A stretch of 46,210 bases of DNA from an uncultured Pelagibacteraceae bacterium (GTDB lineage Bacteria; Pseudomonadota; Alphaproteobacteria; Pelagibacterales; Pelagibacteraceae): assembly GCA_902564245.1 (NCBI GenBank), contig CACFAF010000007.1, positions 1-46,210 on the forward strand, read 5' to 3'. A program made the translations under genes and the position numbers. The notes below the pieces were generated by a model. The model was given only the letters and a program-made list of their open reading frames with translations, did not search any database and was not told the origin of the DNA. Positions 2,150 to 14,689 of this stretch are shown here, piece after piece. Every line of letters starts with the position of its first letter. Position 1 is the first letter of the stretch.

Positions 2150-2733
2150 TTTAAATTTGATAAATATTCTTTAATTTTTTTTATAGGCAATCCCATAATT
2201 GTATCCTTATCACCTTCTATTTTTGAAAATAAAAATCTTCCTTCAGATTCAATTTGATAAACGTTATAAGCGTATAAAGTTTCATCTTTTATTTTAGATA
2301 GATATTTTATTAATTCTTCATCTTTCATTTTCTTCATTGTAAGAGTGGCTTTATCAGTATAATTCCAAATCATAGAACCCTCTTTAGAAATACAAACAGA
2401 GCTAATTAATTTATGAGGTTTTCCATTAAGTTTTTTTAATATTTCCAATGCTTCCACTCTGTTGGTAGGTTTAGAAATAATTTCTCCATTTAAATCAATA
2501 ACACTGTCCGCCCCAAGCACAATTTTGTTTTTAAATTTTAAACTAACTTTATTAGCTTTTAATTCTGCTAAATTTTTTGAAATAAATTCAGGACTAGCTT
2601 TTTCTTTTAATAAACTGCTTTTAATTATATCTTCATCTAAATTTGATGGGGCTACAACACAATTTATACCATTTATATTTAAAATTTTTTTTCTAACATT
2701 ACTTTTAGATGCTAAAATTATTTCTTTAACCAT
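2143..2733 (-). CDS. maf: Maf-family nucleotide pyrophosphatase
   Basis: A 196-aa protein of the Maf/YhdE/YceF family, house-cleaning enzymes that hydrolyse non-canonical or methylated nucleoside triphosphates to monophosphates. It opens with the family signature LASKSNVRKKIL (phosphate-binding S-x-x-R), has VLGADSVI with the catalytic Asp in the middle, and KPTNRVEALEILKKLNGKPH, the conserved helix. The C-terminal half contains the YNVYQIESEGRFLFSKIEGD region seen in alphaproteobacterial members. The start overlaps ppsR by 8 bases and the stop overlaps the small membrane ORF. Which subfamily substrate it uses (dTTP/UTP or m7GTP) cannot be decided by eye. Confidence 0.92.
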   Translation of the reverse strand: MVKEIILASKSNVRKKILNINGINCVVAPSNLDEDIIKSSLLKEKASPEFISKNLAELKANKVSLKFKNKIVLGADSVIDLNGEIISKPTNRVEALEILKKLNGKPHKLISSVCISKEGSMIWNYTDKATLTMKKMKDEELIKYLSKIKDETLYAYNVYQIESEGRFLFSKIEGDKDTIMGLPIKKIKEYLSNLKC

Positions 2734-3550
2734 TACTTTTGAATATTTCGTGAATTTTAATTACAGAAGCCGCGGTCTCTTCAACAGACTTACGAGTAAT
2801 GTCTATCATGGGCCATTTGTATTTTTTAAAAGTTTTTTTAGCATTTTCCACTTCTTTTTTAATTTTATCTAAATTCGTATAACTGGTTTTTTCAGTTTCT
2901 TTTAATATATTCATTCTATTTTTTCTAATCTCATATAACCTTTGTGGTTCTGTTGTAAGTCCCACTACACATGATATCTTTGGTTTTCTTTTTAAAATTT
3001 CTGGAATTGAACTTTCATTTACTAATGGAATATTGGAAGTTCTAAAACCTCTATTTGCTAAATAAATTGATGTTGGGGTTTTTCCCGTTCTACTAACTCC
3101 TAACAAAATTATATCTGACTTTTCTATATCATTAACCAAATTTCCGTCATCATGGTTCATTGTAAATTGAATAGCATCAATTCTATTATAATATTCTTCA
3201 TTTAAAGCATACTGACCACTAGGAACATGTAGTGCTTTTTGATTTAATAGTTTAGAAAAACTAATTATTAAATCCCCCAATATACCAAAACATGGTATTT
3301 TAATTTTATTGCTTTCCTGGCCTAAAAATTTAGCTAATTGATTATCTACTATAGTGTATAAAATTATCGAATTTTTTTGTTTTTTTGAAATATCTAATAT
3401 CTTCATTATTTGATTTTCAGTTCTTGTAAAAGAATAAGAATGAATCTTATAATCAAAATTTTTAAATTGTGCCTTTAAAGCTAAAAAAATTCTATCTAGA
3501 GTTTCCCCAGTTGAATCTGAAATTAAATATATCTGATATTTATTATCCAT
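2726..3550 (-). CDS. ppsR: Pyruvate,phosphate dikinase / PEP synthase regulatory protein (DUF299 bifunctional kinase-phosphorylase)
   Basis: A 274-aa member of the DUF299 family, which inactivates and reactivates PPDK or PEP synthase by ADP-dependent threonine phosphorylation and phosphate-dependent dephosphorylation. Visible signatures are YLISDSTGETLD at the N-terminus, the P-loop LLGVSRTGKTPTS (about residues 149-161), and GLTTEPQRLYEIR. The C-terminal MIDITRKSVEETAA segment is also typical. In this clade the target is more likely PPDK, which is an inference. It is the first gene of the left-hand operon and faces hemE across the 281-bp spacer. In Caulobacter and relatives, from memory, the same gene borders the replication origin opposite hemE. 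Confidence 0.92.
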   Translation of the reverse strand: MDNKYQIYLISDSTGETLDRIFLALKAQFKNFDYKIHSYSFTRTENQIMKILDISKKQKNSIILYTIVDNQLAKFLGQESNKIKIPCFGILGDLIISFSKLLNQKALHVPSGQYALNEEYYNRIDAIQFTMNHDDGNLVNDIEKSDIILLGVSRTGKTPTSIYLANRGFRTSNIPLVNESSIPEILKRKPKISCVVGLTTEPQRLYEIRKNRMNILKETEKTSYTNLDKIKKEVENAKKTFKKYKWPMIDITRKSVEETAASVIKIHEIFKSNG

Positions 3551-3557
3551 GAATAAA

Positions 3558-3770
3558 ATGTTTATAACTTAGTATAATTATACTTTTTTTTTATAATTAA
3601 AATGTATGTATATTTATGTTGTAAAACCTTAATTTTATAAACATAATTACACATGTTAATAAATAATATACATCTAATATAATAAAAATAAATAGCGCTT
3701 CAAATTAACTAATATACATTAATTTAATTAAGAATTATTTAGGTATAAAAAATGAATAAAATGTTAATAA
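3558..3770. repeat. Four copies of a DnaA-box-like 10-mer TTATWAACAT
   Basis: Copies lie at 3558-3567 (minus orientation, TTATAAACAT), 3635-3644 (plus, TTATAAACAT), 3653-3662 (minus, TTATTAACAT) and 3761-3770 (minus, TTATTAACAT). With the perfect box at 3784-3793 they fit TTATWMACAT, differing only at position 6. They are confined to the ppsR-hemE spacer as far as I noticed. They may be the lineage's own lower-affinity DnaA boxes. Confidence 0.6.
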
Positions 3771-3783
3771 AAAATAATACTCA

Positions 3784-3792
3784 TTATTCACA
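3784..3792 (+). promoter_or_regulatory. DnaA box, perfect consensus match
   Basis: TTATTCACA matches the DnaA-box consensus TTWTNCACA at every position and is followed by T, as are the related boxes in the same spacer. It lies 40 bases upstream of the hemE ATG. DnaA binding here would serve origin firing and could also regulate hemE. One 9-mer alone could be chance; the neighbouring near-matches raise the confidence. Confidence 0.6.
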
Positions 3793-3831
3793 TAACATAT
3801 AACTACTAAAACTATATAATAATTTATTAAT

Positions 3832-4836
3832 ATGACTCCTATTCAAGAATGTATTTTAAATAAAAGAATAGATAAAACTCCAATATGGCTAATGAGACAA
3901 GCTGGAAGATATTTACCAGAATTTAGAAAAATAAGAAGATTAAATCCAGATTTTGTAAACTTGTGTTTAAATGAAAATAAATCTTCAAGAATCACTTTAC
4001 AACCATTAGAAAGATTTGATTTAGATGCTGCAATAATCTTTTCGGACATTTTAATGGTACCTTATGGATTGGGTCAAAATTTAATTTTTAAAAAGAAAAT
4101 AGGACCACAGCTAGAAGATATAAATTTTGAAAAGTTAAAAAGAATTAAAAAAAAAGAATTTTTAGAAAAATTAAATCCAGTTTATAAAATAGTAAAAAAA
4201 GTAAAGAAAAATAGTATAGTTAAAAATAAAGATGTAATAGGTTTTGTAGGAGCACCTTGGACTTTGTTAGTTTATATGATTAACAAGACTTCTCCCAAAA
4301 ATAAGATTTTAAATAATTTTTTTAAAAATAAAATGTTAATAGATCAATTACTATCAATTTTAGAAAAATTTTTAAAAATCCATATTGAAAATCAAGTTAA
4401 AAATGGTGCATCAATTATACAGATATTTGATAGTTGGGCAGGATTATTAAAAGAAAAAGATTTAGAAAAATATGTATATTTACCAACTTCTAATTTAGTA
4501 AAATTTGTTAAATCATTAGATGTTCCAGTTGTTTGTTTTCCTAGAAATATAAAAAATTATAAAAAATTTTGTGATGAAGTTAACCCAGATGTAATTAATA
4601 TCGATTATAACGTAAATATAACTAATATCTCAGAAAAAATTCATATACCAATCCAAGGGGGCCTTAATCCAAATATTTTACTCTCAAATAAAGATGATTT
4701 AAAGAAAGAAGCTTTAAAGTATTTAAATACATTTAAAAATCATCCATATATTTTTAATCTAGGACATGGTGTCATGCCAAAAACTAATCCAAAAATGATT
4801 GATTATTTAGTAAATATTGTTAAGGACTTTAAATGA
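3832..4836 (+). CDS. hemE: Uroporphyrinogen III decarboxylase
   Basis: A 334-aa enzyme that decarboxylates the four acetate chains of uroporphyrinogen III to give coproporphyrinogen III. The N-terminus has WLMRQAGRYLPEFRK, the invariant family signature with the substrate-binding Arg residues. IIFSDILMVPYGLG carries the catalytic Asp, and GFVGAPWTLLVYM and IIQIFDSWAG are further conserved blocks. GLNPNILL and NLGHGVMPKTNP near the C-terminus complete the family pattern. It is the first gene to the right of the origin candidate, and its stop overlaps the ferrochelatase start (ATGA), so hemE, hemH and hemJ probably form one transcript. Length is normal. Confidence 0.97.
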   Translation: MTPIQECILNKRIDKTPIWLMRQAGRYLPEFRKIRRLNPDFVNLCLNENKSSRITLQPLERFDLDAAIIFSDILMVPYGLGQNLIFKKKIGPQLEDINFEKLKRIKKKEFLEKLNPVYKIVKKVKKNSIVKNKDVIGFVGAPWTLLVYMINKTSPKNKILNNFFKNKMLIDQLLSILEKFLKIHIENQVKNGASIIQIFDSWAGLLKEKDLEKYVYLPTSNLVKFVKSLDVPVVCFPRNIKNYKKFCDEVNPDVINIDYNVNITNISEKIHIPIQGGLNPNILLSNKDDLKKEALKYLNTFKNHPYIFNLGHGVMPKTNPKMIDYLVNIVKDFK

Positions 4837-6331: not shown

Positions 6332-7601
6332 ATGAATATTCAAGAATTAAAAACAAAGTCGTCTGAACAATTGATAACTCAGGCCGAGGGTCTTGGCATA
6401 GAAAATGCAAGTACTCTTAGAAAACAAGAAATATTGTTCGCAATCCTAAAAAAACTAGCTGAAAAAGAGGAAATAACTGGAGGTGGAGTTTTACAACTAC
6501 TTCAAGATGGTTTCGGTTTTTTAAGAGCTATAGAGTCTAACTACTTGCCTGGTCCAGATGATATTTACATAAGTCCAAGTCAAATAAGAAGATTTGGTTT
6601 AAGAACAGGTGATACAGTTGAAGGTCCTGTGAGGGCTCCCAAAGAAGGTGAGAGGTATTTTGCATTACTTCAGGTCGGAAAAAATTAATTTTGAGGACCC
6701 TGAAAAAGCAAGACATAAAATTGCTTTTGATAATTTAACTCCTTTGTATCCAAATAAACAATTAGTTATGGAGGTTGAAAGCAGTAAAGTTGAGAAGAAA
6801 CCAGATTTAACTCCTAGACTAATTGATCTAGTAAGTCCGATCGGCAAAGGACAAAGATCATTAATTATTTCACCGCCTAAAGCAGGTAAAACTATGATAT
6901 TGCAAAGTATAGCTAATTCAATCGCCGCTAATCATCCAGAGTGTTATTTAATGGTTTTATTAATAGACGAAAGACCCGAGGAAGTTACTGATATGCAAAG
7001 AACAGTTAAAGGAGAAGTTATAAGTTCCACATTTGATGAACCTGCTCAAAGACACGTTGCTGTAGCAGAAATGGTAATAGAAAAAGCTAAAAGGCTAACA
7101 GAGCATAAAAAGGATGTAGTTATTTTATTAGATTCTATAACAAGATTAGGCAAAGCTTATAATGCTGTAATACCTAGTTCAGGAAAAGTTTTAACTGGCG
7201 GGGTAGACGCTAATGCTCTTCAGAGACCAAAAAGATTTTTTGGTCCAGCAAGAAATATTGAAGAAGGTGGTTCACTAACAATTATATCTACAGCTCTTAT
7301 TGATACTGGTAGTAGAATGGACGAAGTAATTTTTGAAGAATTTAAAGGAACTGGAAATAGTGAAACAATATTAGATAGAAAAATATCTGAAAAAAGAATT
7401 TTTCCAGCTATAGACATTACAAAATCTGGAACTAGGAGGGAGGAACTTATTTTTGAAAAGAATGACCTCCAGAAAATGAATGTACTAAGAAGAATAATTG
7501 CTCCAATGGGAACAATGGATGCAATAGAATTTATCAACTCAAAATTAAAGAATACTAAAAATAATGCAGAGTTCTTTAATTCTATGAACAAACCAGCTTA
7601 A
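6332..7601 (+). CDS. rho: Transcription termination factor Rho, interrupted by a one-base frameshift at an A6 run
   Basis: Two overlapping frames together encode a full-length Rho of about 422 aa. The first (ATG 6332, stop TAA 6686-6688) covers the N-terminal helical domain and the RNA-binding cold-shock-like domain with DGFGFLR and ends after ALLQVGKN. The second frame, offset by one base, resumes with [13 protein letters not shown] and runs to 7601. It contains Walker [33 protein letters not shown] (Walker B) and the Q/R-loop regions. Removing one base within GGAAAAAA (6677-6684) gives ALLQVGKINFEDP, which aligns without gaps to the E. coli Rho segment ALLKVNEVNFDKP. The cause may be a real mutation rescued by slippage, programmed frameshifting, or a sequence error. 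Rho is an RNA helicase that releases RNA polymerase. No other gene here is broken. Confidence 0.9.
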
Positions 7602-10961: not shown

Positions 10962-11608
10962 TGGAAGAAGAAATTATAAAAAAATATTCTTTATTAAAAA
11001 AATTTAACGTTTCACGTGAAACTTACTTTGACTTTGAGAGCTTAATATCAATGATAATTAAGAAAAATAAGGAAATAAACATTATAAGCAAAAAAACCGC
11101 TAAAAATGATGATATTAGGATACGTCATATAATAGATTCTGCACAAATAATTGATTTTGTTGATTTAAATTCAAATACAACCTCTGATTTAGGTACTGGA
11201 GGTGGAATGCCTGGAATAGTAATTGCAATAATTATAAAAAATCTAAAAAAAAGAATGAAATTTAATTTATATGAAAAAAGTTACAGAAAAAGTTTGTTTC
11301 TTAGAGAGGTTTCTAGAAATTTAAATTTAGACACTGAAATTATTCAAAAGGACGTTTTTTTAAGTAATAAAATTCAAACAGGAACTATAATGGCAAGGGC
11401 ATTTAAACCATTGCCAGTTGTCTTAGAATTGATCTCCAAAAATTTTATTAGTTATAAAAATTTAGTTTTGTTCATGGGAAAAAATGGAAAACAAATTTTG
11501 GAGGATACTCTAAAGGTTTGGGATTTTGAATATATTAAAAAAAAGAGTCTTACAAACAAAGATTCTTTTTTATTAAATATAAAAAATATTAAAAAAAAAT
11601 TAAATTGA
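10961..11608 (+). CDS. rsmG: 16S rRNA (guanine-527-N7)-methyltransferase RsmG (GidB)
   Basis: A 215-aa SAM-dependent enzyme that methylates N7 of G527 in 16S rRNA. Visible features are the N-terminal FNVSRET segment, RHIIDSAQ (family RHI.DS), and the SAM-binding loop SDLGTGGGMPGIVIAI (about residues 75-90). IMARAFKPLPVVLE is the conserved ARA.A.L block. The codons for NVSRET contain a perfect parS core (see separate entry). The start overlaps the mnmG stop and the stop overlaps the parA ATG, so translation is probably coupled from mnmG through parB. This order is classical for origin-proximal regions in many bacteria. Confidence 0.95.
   Translation: MEEEIIKKYSLLKKFNVSRETYFDFESLISMIIKKNKEINIISKKTAKNDDIRIRHIIDSAQIIDFVDLNSNTTSDLGTGGGMPGIVIAIIIKNLKKRMKFNLYEKSYRKSLFLREVSRNLNLDTEIIQKDVFLSNKIQTGTIMARAFKPLPVVLELISKNFISYKNLVLFMGKNGKQILEDTLKVWDFEYIKKKSLTNKDSFLLNIKNIKKKLN
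11009..11022. promoter_or_regulatory. parS centromere site inside rsmG
   Basis: GTTTCACGTGAAAC is a perfect 14-bp palindrome identical to the core of the bacterial chromosomal parS consensus (TGTTTCACGTGAAACA). The outermost pair here is C/T rather than T/A. It lies in the first codons of rsmG, encoding the VSRET segment, about 600 bp upstream of parA and about 7.2 kb from the origin candidate. ParB encoded just downstream should nucleate here. Confidence 0.93.
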
Positions 11609-12402
11609 TGCAAGTTATTTCTATAATAAATCAAAAAGGTGGAGTTGGCAAAACTACAACTGTGATAAATCTTGCAGCCGGCTTATCTAAACAAAATAAA
11701 AAAATTTTAGTTATAGATTTGGACCCCCAAGGAAACGCTACCACTGGTTTGGGATTGTCTAATATAGAAAATTCTAACGATACAATTTATAGTGTACTGA
11801 ATGGTACAAAAACTTTATCTGAAGTAATCAAAAAAACTAAATTTGACAATTTAGATATTGTTACTTCAAATGTAGATTTATCAGGATTAGAGGTAGAAAC
11901 CGCTGGAGATAACAAAAGAGCTTTTATTTTAAAGAATCAATTAATGGCTAATTTTAAGGATTCTAGAGCAAATTATGATTATCTATTAATTGATTGCCCA
12001 CCATCACTAAGTCTGCTGACTGTCATGGCTTTAGTATCATCTAAATCACTTTTGGTGCCTCTTCAAACAGAATTTTTTGCTTTAGAAGGGCTAACTCAAT
12101 TAATGAAAACAATTGACCGAGTAAAAGTTAGTTTAAACCCTGAGTTAAAAATTAGAGGAATCCTTTTAACTATGTACGATAAAAGAAATAAACTTTCTTC
12201 TCAAGTAGAAAAGGAAGCAAGGGATTATTTCAAAAATCAAGTTTATAATAATGTAATTCCACGAAATGTAAGATTATCAGAAGCTCCTTCTCATGGAGTT
12301 CCGGTTTTGGTTTATGACAAAACATGTCCTGGTAGTAAGGCATATTTTAATTTTACCGATGAATTTATCAATCAAGAAAATCAAATTGAAAGTGCTGCAT
12401 AA
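11608..12402 (+). CDS. parA: Chromosome-partitioning ATPase ParA (Soj-type)
   Basis: A 264-aa Walker-type ATPase without an N-terminal DNA-binding extension, i.e. the chromosomal type. It forms nucleoid-bound dimers whose ATPase is triggered by ParB at parS to move sister origins apart. The deviant Walker A is NQKGGVGKTTT (residues about 8-18), the Walker A' LVIDLDPQGNATTG, and Walker B LLIDCPPSLSLLT. I take the ATG at 11608, which overlaps the rsmG stop as TGATG. A TTG one codon earlier would also be in frame but would give an odd Met-Met start. The end overlaps the parB start by one base. Confidence 0.96.
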   Translation: MQVISIINQKGGVGKTTTVINLAAGLSKQNKKILVIDLDPQGNATTGLGLSNIENSNDTIYSVLNGTKTLSEVIKKTKFDNLDIVTSNVDLSGLEVETAGDNKRAFILKNQLMANFKDSRANYDYLLIDCPPSLSLLTVMALVSSKSLLVPLQTEFFALEGLTQLMKTIDRVKVSLNPELKIRGILLTMYDKRNKLSSQVEKEARDYFKNQVYNNVIPRNVRLSEAPSHGVPVLVYDKTCPGSKAYFNFTDEFINQENQIESAA

Positions 12403-13250
12403 TGGATTCATTTAAAATTAAAAAAGGGCTTGGTAGGGGATTATCTTCTCTAATTGGAGATAATAAAATTGAGTCAAATGTTAATAAATTATCAATTGGT
12501 GAGCTCGTTAGAAATAGATATCAACCAAGAAGATCATTTGATGAAGAAAGTCTTGAAGAATTAACAAATTCCATAAGAGAAAGAGGAATAATTCAACCGA
12601 TTATTGTTAGAAAATCAGAAAATGAAAATTCTAAATTTGAGATAATTGCTGGAGAAAGAAGGTGGATAGCAGCTCAAAAAGCAGGATTACATGAGGTACC
12701 AGTTGTCGTAACTGAAGTTGATGATCTTAAATCTTTAGAATTTGCAATAGTAGAAAATGTTCAAAGACACGATTTAAATGCTATAGAAGAAGCGCAAGGA
12801 TACCAAAGACTAATAAATGAATTTTCCTATGATCAAGAAAAAGTAGCAAGGTTTATAGGAAAAAGTAGGAGTCATGTTACTAACTGCATTAGATTATTAA
12901 GCTTGCCTAAGGATGTTTTAAATCTAATTGAAAAAAATAAATTGTCCCCGGGTCATGGAAAAATATTAGTAGGTTTAGATAATGCAAGTTTTTTGGCAAA
13001 CAAAATTATAGATAAAAAACTTTCTGTCAGACAAGCAGAAAACTTAGTAAAAATTTTTAAAACAAATAAAATATCAAAAAAATCACACAAAGATCCAAAT
13101 TTAAAAGAACTTGAACAGTTACTTATAGAAAAAATTGGTCTAAATGTATTAATTAAAAATAAAAAAAATAACTCAGGTTCAATTTTATTTGAATACAAAG
13201 ATATTGATCAATTAAACAAAATTATAGAAATAATTAAGTCCCACTATTAG
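12402..13250 (+). CDS. parB: Chromosome-partitioning protein ParB (Spo0J-type CTPase)
   Basis: A 282-aa ParB. The N-terminus GLGRGLSSLIG is the short ParA-stimulating peptide. The CTP-binding ParB/Srx domain follows with RNRYQPRRSFDEESLEEL, IQPIIVR and GERRWIAAQKAG, and NVQRHDLNAIEEAQGY is the second CTP motif. The helix-turn-helix VARFIGKSRSHVTNCIRLL (about residues 147-165) reads parS. The C-terminal dimerisation domain is at about 215-282. ParB clamps load at the parS in rsmG and slide. The last 17 bases overlap holA tail-to-tail. Confidence 0.96.
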   Translation: MDSFKIKKGLGRGLSSLIGDNKIESNVNKLSIGELVRNRYQPRRSFDEESLEELTNSIRERGIIQPIIVRKSENENSKFEIIAGERRWIAAQKAGLHEVPVVVTEVDDLKSLEFAIVENVQRHDLNAIEEAQGYQRLINEFSYDQEKVARFIGKSRSHVTNCIRLLSLPKDVLNLIEKNKLSPGHGKILVGLDNASFLANKIIDKKLSVRQAENLVKIFKTNKISKKSHKDPNLKELEQLLIEKIGLNVLIKNKKNNSGSILFEYKDIDQLNKIIEIIKSHY

Positions 13251-14235
13251 TTTTAAAAGCTATAGAAATAATAAAATCTGTTAGTATATTAATTGAATTT
13301 GTAGCATTTTTCTTTATTAAAAGCTCTATCTCATTCGTTTTATATATTAATTTTTCAGTATTTTTAAGATCCCAATATTTAATCTGTTGTTTTACAATTT
13401 CTTTATCTTTCCAAAAAATTGGTGGTTTAAAAGATGAAATTATGCTTTCAACATTTTTATCATTATTAATTTGAGATAGAAGTTTATATAATCTTTTCGT
13501 TTTAATCAAAAGAGTTCTTGTAATTAATATAGAGTCATCTAAAGAAAAATTATTTTCATTTAAAATATTAATTGTTTTTCTATAATTTTTAGATAAACAG
13601 CTATCAATCAATTCAGATATATTATAATTTTCAGCAAGATTGGTTAGTTTCAAAATTTCTTCTAAATTAATTTTATTTTTATTTTTTATATAAGCTTCAA
13701 TTTTGTTAAGTTCATTTTTCAAGTTTTGTCTATCTCCTCTACTTCTTTCTACTAATAAATTTATTAATTGTTGAGATATTGGAATTTTTTTTTCGTTAAA
13801 GAATTTGTTAACTAAGGTATTTAAAGTTTTTAAATTATCAGCATAAAAAGGGATACATATTGTACTTTTATCTTTTTCAAAAAAATTTCTTAATTTTGAT
13901 TTCTTGTCTAAAATTTCAGCATTAATTATAATTTTTATATCTTTTACATCTTTTTCTATAATTTCTTCAATTATATTAAATATTTTATCTCCAGCTCGAG
14001 AAATTATAACAATTTTTTTGTTTTCAAAAAAAGATTTAGATAAAATGCTATTGAAAAAATTGTTTGTATCATCCAAAATTTCTTTTTCATCATATCTATA
14101 AATATTTTTATTCGAGTTTGTATTGAATAAATTTTCAATAGTTTCATTTTTATGACCTTCATTTTCGCCGTAAAATAAATAAAAATTGGTCTTTTCTGAA
14201 TTAATTTTATTTAATTCAAATGATTTTATTATCAT
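13234..14235 (-). CDS. holA: DNA polymerase III delta subunit
   Basis: A 333-aa clamp-loader subunit that opens the beta clamp. The sequence is divergent and Lys/Asn/Ile-rich. It has the family's N-terminal FYLFYGENEGHKNETIENL, SFFENKKIVIISRA (the S-L-F...R segment), and LLVERSRGDRQNLKNELNKIEAYI, the conserved GD...L.NELEKL block. Position is also diagnostic: parB-holA-lptE-leuS is the conserved alphaproteobacterial order. It is convergent with parB, sharing 17 bases, and begins four bases after lptE. Cytoplasmic. Identity rests on motifs plus context because the family is poorly conserved. Confidence 0.88.
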   Translation of the reverse strand: MIIKSFELNKINSEKTNFYLFYGENEGHKNETIENLFNTNSNKNIYRYDEKEILDDTNNFFNSILSKSFFENKKIVIISRAGDKIFNIIEEIIEKDVKDIKIIINAEILDKKSKLRNFFEKDKSTICIPFYADNLKTLNTLVNKFFNEKKIPISQQLINLLVERSRGDRQNLKNELNKIEAYIKNKNKINLEEILKLTNLAENYNISELIDSCLSKNYRKTINILNENNFSLDDSILITRTLLIKTKRLYKLLSQINNDKNVESIISSFKPPIFWKDKEIVKQQIKYWDLKNTEKLIYKTNEIELLIKKNATNSINILTDFIISIAFKTNSGT

Positions 14236-14239
14236 CTTA

Positions 14240-14689
14240 TTATATTGAGTGTAATTTTAAGTTTATATCTTTAATTATTTCGTTTATTAAATTTTCTTGA
14301 ATATTATTTTCATACTGTTTTAGATCAAATTTATTTGACATATTTTTGTAACTAAAATTTTTAGATAAGTTGAGATTATTTATTTCTTTGTTATCTTTTA
14401 AAATACTAATATTTGTTTTAATCGACATATTAAATATTTTAGCATCACCTGTATTATCTTTAGAAACAATTAAAATTTCTTTAGTCCCTTTAATTTTTAA
14501 TTTATAAAATTTATTTTTATTTTTTTCATCTGTTAAATTTTTTAAATTTCTAGCTATTAGTTTTTCAACTTTATTTTGATTTATCAATTCAATATCAATT
14601 ATAGCAAAATCATTTTCTTTAGATGAATATATTGCTTCATAACTACAGCTTGTTAAAATAAATAAAAATAATAAATAAAATTTTTTCAT
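14240..14689 (-). CDS. lptE: LPS-assembly lipoprotein LptE-like
   Basis: A 149-aa predicted outer-membrane lipoprotein. A short basic start and hydrophobic helix end in the lipobox LTSC (lipidated Cys15). The rest alternates beta-strand-like segments, with YEAIYSS directly after the Cys and a middle region resembling the family's fold. LptE plugs the LptD barrel and helps place LPS in the outer leaflet. Sequence identity in this family is low, so the call depends mainly on the lipobox, the size and the leuS-lptE-holA order, which is shared widely in Proteobacteria. It starts six bases after leuS ends. Confidence 0.75.
   Translation of the reverse strand: MKKFYLLFLFILTSCSYEAIYSSKENDFAIIDIELINQNKVEKLIARNLKNLTDEKNKNKFYKLKIKGTKEILIVSKDNTGDAKIFNMSIKTNISILKDNKEINNLNLSKNFSYKNMSNKFDLKQYENNIQENLINEIIKDINLKLHSI

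Follow-up and report, generated by a model that had tools for sequence, protein, structure and literature searches.

A spacer between ppsR and hemE as the probable chromosomal replication origin of a Pelagibacteraceae (SAR11) bacterium

The intergenic spacer between the divergent genes ppsR and hemE is, with a probability that we put at about 0.93 from sequence comparison, the chromosomal oriC of the Pelagibacteraceae (SAR11) bacterium studied here. Few cells in the sea are as abundant as those of SAR11 bacteria. The window, i.e. the whole stretch of 46,210 nucleotides that was analysed, is the complete contig C7 of a 38-contig genome (86.8% complete). An origin between ppsR and hemE had already been proposed in a preliminary description of this DNA on the basis of one DnaA box, the A+T content and the local gene polarity. 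This evidence is not enough, but the comparison among relatives is, and it supports the proposal. The sequence of the spacer, its conservation and its place on the chromosomes of complete relatives were all observed directly, and the features concerned are collected in Table 1.

The ppsR ORF begins at 3550 on the minus strand and hemE at 3832 on the plus strand, leaving the 281 bp between them as the largest gap between main ORFs in the window (the next measure 215 and 148 bp, the median is 4 bp). The preliminary description had given this large non-coding spacer with exact coordinates, and had called it very A+T-rich. The A+T content indeed exceeds the window mean (86.8% versus 73.7%), as in origins of the COG1806-hemE type, but the value is not distinctive, since two other stretches of this length, at 714 and 43815, reach 87.9% and the spacer ranks third. 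Likewise, the least stable 100-bp stretches of duplex in the window include those at 3733 and 3520 (ranks 3 and 4), while the 60-bp minimum of the spacer ranks sixth. A+T richness and duplex stability alone were consequently dropped as evidence for an origin. Searches for Rfam families between 3300 and 4100 (E up to 1) and for tRNA genes in the window returned none.

To the left of the spacer ppsR, maf, aroE, coaE and a partial dnaQ-like ORF run leftward, and to the right hemE, hemH, UPF0093, rho (two ORFs), mnmE, mnmG, rsmG, parA and parB run rightward up to 13250. The switch in polarity that had been claimed for the spacer is thus real, but further switches recur elsewhere in the window. The claim of a parS site and parAB about 7 kb away also held, with a parS-like palindrome 7.2 kb from the spacer and parAB beyond it. 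The two rho ORFs overlap, 6332-6688 carrying the RNA-binding domains and 6648-7601 the ATPase domain, a split (6332-7601) that is read as a frameshift or an assembly error. Past parB, two minus-strand ORFs occupy 13234-14689, one without a Pfam match and the other with a sub-threshold match to T4 Spackle.

Table 1. Features of the proposed origin and its surroundings (window coordinates).
Feature	Position	Strand	Remarks
ppsR (Kinase-PPPase, COG1806-type), left flank	2726..3550	-	
Proposed oriC, ppsR-hemE intergenic spacer	3551..3831	.	Largest gap, 86.8% A+T, conserved length
DnaA box TTATAAACA, ppsR edge	3559..3567	-	TTATN[A/C]ACA there in 55/88; G at 3560 among the most conserved bases
DnaA box TTATAAACA	3635..3643	+	41/88 spacers
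DnaA box TTATTAACA	3654..3662	-	24/88 spacers
DnaA box TTATTAACA	3762..3770	-	25/88 there; 22 more matches counted at 3740
DnaA box TTATTCACA beside trinucleotide repeat (BUS box)	3784..3792	+	Exact TTATN[A/C]ACA in 47/88
DnaA-trio-like repeat	3797..3814	- (trio strand, 3'-NAT-5')	Top strand ATA TAA CTA CTA AAA CTA; 3-bp phase
Predicted unwinding region, A+T-rich up to hemE start codon	3804..3831	.	Predicted from its place beside box and trios
hemE, right flank	3832..4836	+	
parS-like palindrome inside rsmG	11008..11023	.	CGTTTCACGTGAAACT, 2 mismatches to consensus
parA and parB	11605..13250	+	

Conservation of the spacer was followed across 147 genomes of the order Pelagibacterales, in which ppsR was recognised in 90, all of the bacterium's own family (f1), and hemE in 134 (E up to 1e-40). 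In 88 of the 90 ppsR-bearing genomes hemE is the divergent neighbour of ppsR, the flanking pair of COG1806-hemE-type origins; the other two (G001 and G007) have hemE away from ppsR and stand outside the 88. The 88 spacers measure 255-289 bp with a mean of 17.2% G+C, the lengths being approximate in seven because the hemE start estimated from the alignment is not ATG. A further 69 distinct spacers from named Pelagibacteraceae (80 loci listed, minus 11 with spacers identical to others) measure 264-286 bp, and four of them carry no box at the expected place. Among the matches listed, the closest ppsR relatives in named genomes belong to Pelagibacteraceae at 80 of 80 loci. Alignment of the spacers reveals conserved blocks at both ends and one mid-spacer, separated by poorly conserved A+T-rich DNA. 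With 88 of 90 genomes agreeing, the spacer is conserved in position, a point on which the preliminary description had made its proposal depend. Neither ppsR nor hemE was matched in four genomes of the same genus that are at least 92% complete (G072, G082, G123 and G139), perhaps because the origin region is absent from the assembly. In G058:C5 and G141:C2, hemE matches over its first half only (about 160-170 codons), next to an intact ppsR.

The perfect DnaA box singled out in the preliminary description, TTATTCACA at 3784, is an exact match to TTATNCACA, but it is no proof alone, since TTATNCACA occurs at 4 sites in the window against 2.41 expected and 21 of 100 shuffles reach 4. A single strict box was accordingly dropped as evidence for an origin, and under the strict rule the window spacer holds only that one. 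Four more boxes in the spacer, all of the form TTATNAACA, had not been mentioned there (Table 1). Taken together as TTATN[A/C]ACA, a consensus picked after the alignment had been viewed, boxes total 259 across the 88 spacers, compared with 15.7 after shuffling, and five lie in the window spacer. By word, TTATNCACA was counted 54 times versus 2.9 and TTATNAACA 205 times versus 12.4, and two control words in which the variable position is G or T show no excess in the 88 spacers (TTATNGACA 3 versus 1.9, TTATNTACA 12 versus 11.7). The number per spacer ranges from 0 (two of 88, with no exact match) to 6, and the boxes recur at fixed places, most often at 3559 (-), 3635 (+), 3762 (-) and 3784 (+); within the last of these, A3790 and C3791 are fully conserved by weight. 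Across the window, and across 400-kb samples from the complete relatives G011 and G020, at least three boxes fall within 281 bp in this spacer only. The helix-turn-helix domain of the host genome's DnaA is intact (PF08299), and the change from C to A in the box therefore looks like drift of the sites, not of the DnaA that reads them.

The hemE-side box is followed by a (C/A)TA repeat with a 3-bp period, which the preliminary description did not mention and which has the layout of DnaA-trios. The favoured phase has 3.78 TA per spacer (88 spacers), and the two other phases have 0.36 and 1.11; the best phase in shuffles has a mean of 1.95 (sd 0.11), and none of 500 reaches the observed value. The phase was repeated in 65 of the 69 new spacers (4.48 versus 0.06 and 0.74). 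In the rule set out in PMC8287927, the BUS has the order box, spacer, trios, with a DnaA box, up to 16 bp and at least three consecutive trios 3'-NAN-5'. At the 3784 box this published rule is passed by 45 of the 88 spacers and failed by 43, the window itself among the failures with two consecutive NTA triplets, below the minimum of three.

The place of the spacer on complete chromosomes was determined with a profile of its hemE-side part (R1), built from 23 f1 spacers with all ten complete genomes left out. In each of the ten its best genome-wide match is this spacer. The E values lie between 2.8e-13 and 3.1e-7 for eight genomes and are weak for G007 (0.0077) and G001 (0.17); runners-up reach 0.0029 or worse, 150 of about 1400-1900 first-look candidates per genome having been scored. 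Eight of the ten share the family, and seven the genus, of the training sequences, so that this is a test of place and not of independent origin. In all ten, the best parS site has 0 or 1 mismatch and is 7.3-19.7 kb from the spacer: 7.3-9.8 kb in seven genomes of the bacterium's own genus, and 16.9-19.7 kb on the opposite side in G009, G001 and G007. In several genomes, two-mismatch sites are no commoner than those of a reversed control pattern.

The raw cumulative GC skew of the window has a local minimum near 4 kb and its lowest point near 35 kb; it is dominated by gene direction and was dropped as evidence. When third-position GC skew is averaged across genes of the two strands, 34 of the 40 stretches sampled from G011 and G020 show the expected sign. 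Fitted on a 10-kb grid with the terminus fixed opposite, the best origin is 16 kb from the spacer in G011 and 40 kb from it in G020, and bootstrapping gives 5-95% ranges of -116 to +4 kb and -90 to +200 kb, respectively. In these samples of two complete relatives the GC-skew check that had been proposed thus yields a sign change near the spacer, resolved to about 100 kb, but the spacer itself ranks second of 131 and fourth of 144 grid positions. P. ubique HTCC1062 is listed among chromosomes with unequal arms by skew (PMC2099444), which calls for caution with a fit that assumed the terminus opposite.

Either neighbour gene has been lost in some relatives. In genus g2 (G001 and G007), hemE has been relocated or replaced at another place, and the spacer next to ppsR, here 353 bp long, borders rho on its right; in G001 it keeps three TTATAAACA boxes, and in both genomes it is matched by the hemE-side profile. 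A more divergent hemE (E about 1e-56) lies roughly 580-650 kb from ppsR in these two genomes. The genomes of family f2 in the sample of the order gave no ppsR match, and the left neighbour of the hemE spacer is maf, as checked in G002 and G010. Spacers of f2 were taken from 20 of 44 hemE-bearing genomes and from G002 and G010. The hemE-maf spacer has a tandem box, CTA repeats and TATATATA in front of hemE; several f2 genomes show a plain version, which in G018 consists of a box, CACAGG, then ACTACTACTACTACC and TATATATATA. A one-box version of the trio rule is passed by 4 of 20 spacers in f2. That boxes and repeat outlast the loss of hemE (g2, ppsR-rho) or of ppsR (f2, hemE-maf) speaks against the view that the spacer is only a shared divergent promoter or regulatory region of ppsR and hemE, whose length and motifs are kept for transcription. 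Any spacer between divergent genes must of course hold both promoters, and here the conserved positions do extend to both start codons. A promoter region does not, however, predict an excess of boxes, the best profile match, the proximity of parS and the skew switch at one place, and we regard this explanation as very improbable.

Still less probable is a true origin elsewhere nearby, for instance at dnaA, from which 61-73 kb or 4.2-6.1% of the chromosome separate it, with the spacer as a DnaA-binding regulatory site (datA-like) or relic origin: oriC does lie beside dnaA in many bacteria and the G020 skew, with its bootstrap range to +200 kb, leaves room for dnaA, but the G011 fit excludes +64 kb at the 95% bootstrap bound, no box cluster was found at dnaA (1, 1 and 0 boxes in loci L001, L093 and L155; 1 in 5 kb in G011), and the COG1806-hemE spacer is the origin in Caulobacter and the predicted origin in Rickettsia (PMC1914354).

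The IHF and CtrA sites of alphaproteobacterial origins of this type were also sought. No IHF and no CtrA consensus was found in the window spacer (0 and 0), which departs in this from the COG1806-hemE type. In the 88 spacers, observed and expected numbers are 16 versus 6.4 for IHF, 70 versus 46.9 for TTAAN7TTAA and 1 versus 2.9 for the CtrA half-site TTAACCAT. These missing sites were not taken as excluding an origin, because several related origins described in PMC1914354 also have few CtrA sites. Pelagibacter is reported to be without ctrA (PMC2877005). The 88 spacers contain 2 GANTC sites where 15.5 would be expected, and none of 200 shuffles gave so few; the 69 further spacers contain 1. 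Observed-to-expected ratios are 0.46-0.49 in whole-genome samples and 0.63-0.96 in other intergenic DNA. This scarcity is suggestive only, because the related spacers are not independent. A depletion of GATC was sought in the 88 spacers and not found (42 versus 29.1 expected). For Pelagibacter, GANTC methylation with an origin-to-terminus gradient has been described, the origin being placed by GC skew (PMC9516812). One strong match to an N6/N4 methylase is present in each of the ten complete relatives, the G003 enzyme, taken as the example, matching CcrM (NF050803) with 578.8 bits, below the curated cut-off of 830, and carrying a RAMA domain; none was found in the host's own genome (86.8% complete). 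Each of the ten complete genomes has a separate Hda-like ORF of 220-249 aa. These ORFs match TIGR03420, though not above its curated cut-off, which only one of 14 control genomes passes.

In combination, these observations allow a tentative reading, which we consider possible but somewhat doubtful, of the spacer as a stripped-down SAR11 origin. The box would have drifted to TTATNAACA, GANTC would be avoided despite a CcrM-type methylase and CtrA control would be missing, so that initiation would be timed by DnaA (with the Hda-like protein) alone, on an unusually A+T-rich module of fixed length that survives replacement of either neighbour.

For the spacer as oriC, we infer the following course of DnaA binding, unwinding and initiation. 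DnaA would bind several relaxed TTATN[A/C]ACA boxes along the spacer and, from the box at 3784-3792, would assemble onto the single-stranded trinucleotide repeat at about 3797-3814 in the manner of a BUS. This assembly would open the A+T-rich DNA before the hemE start codon, where the helicase would be loaded, and the parS site 7 kb off, together with parAB, would then segregate the copied origin.

An origin placed at the level of bases would allow growth-rate estimates from peak-to-trough read depth to be anchored in SAR11 contigs, and DnaA-trio unwinding could be tested on it as a compact alphaproteobacterial origin free of CtrA. The loss of one or the other neighbour gene amounts to a natural experiment that parts origin elements from promoter elements, and comparing relatives reads off the likely working parts of an ordinary bacterial origin type. 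A printed description of a SAR11 oriC was not found in the open-licence literature; DoriC and the supplementary tables of PMC8287927 may include Pelagibacter.

Among alphaproteobacterial origins, the SAR11 site falls into the known COG1806-hemE class. The precedent invoked in the preliminary description is confirmed in PMC1914354, where this gene pair flanks the origin of Caulobacter and those predicted for Rickettsia. Like the SAR11 spacer, Caulobacter Cori and the predicted Rickettsia oriC have divergent COG1806 and hemE flanks and an A+T content above the genome average; they are given there as 383-404 bp long with DnaA, CtrA and IHF sites, whereas the window spacer has 281 bp, no IHF consensus and no TTAACCAT. 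In the predicted origins of Wolbachia, Ehrlichia and Anaplasma, hemE is kept and the other neighbour changes (COG1253), as it does to maf in f2; hemE is always kept in the genera listed, bar one alternative (PMC1914354), whereas in g2 it is ppsR that stays, with rho where hemE would be. The Bacillus subtilis-type BUS resembles the SAR11 arrangement in having a DnaA box, within a few bases a 3-bp repeat with conserved top-strand T/A, and then A+T-rich DNA (rule in PMC8287927). Pelagibacteraceae differ from it in having one near box with no clear tandem and degenerate (C/A)TA triplets, only two of them consecutive in the window. In family f2, several genomes have the tandem form. Compared with its class, the SAR11 form is thus shorter, with a degenerate DnaA-trio element, no recognisable IHF or CtrA sites in the window and a shifted box consensus, the last of which, together with the scarcity of GANTC, is a new detail.
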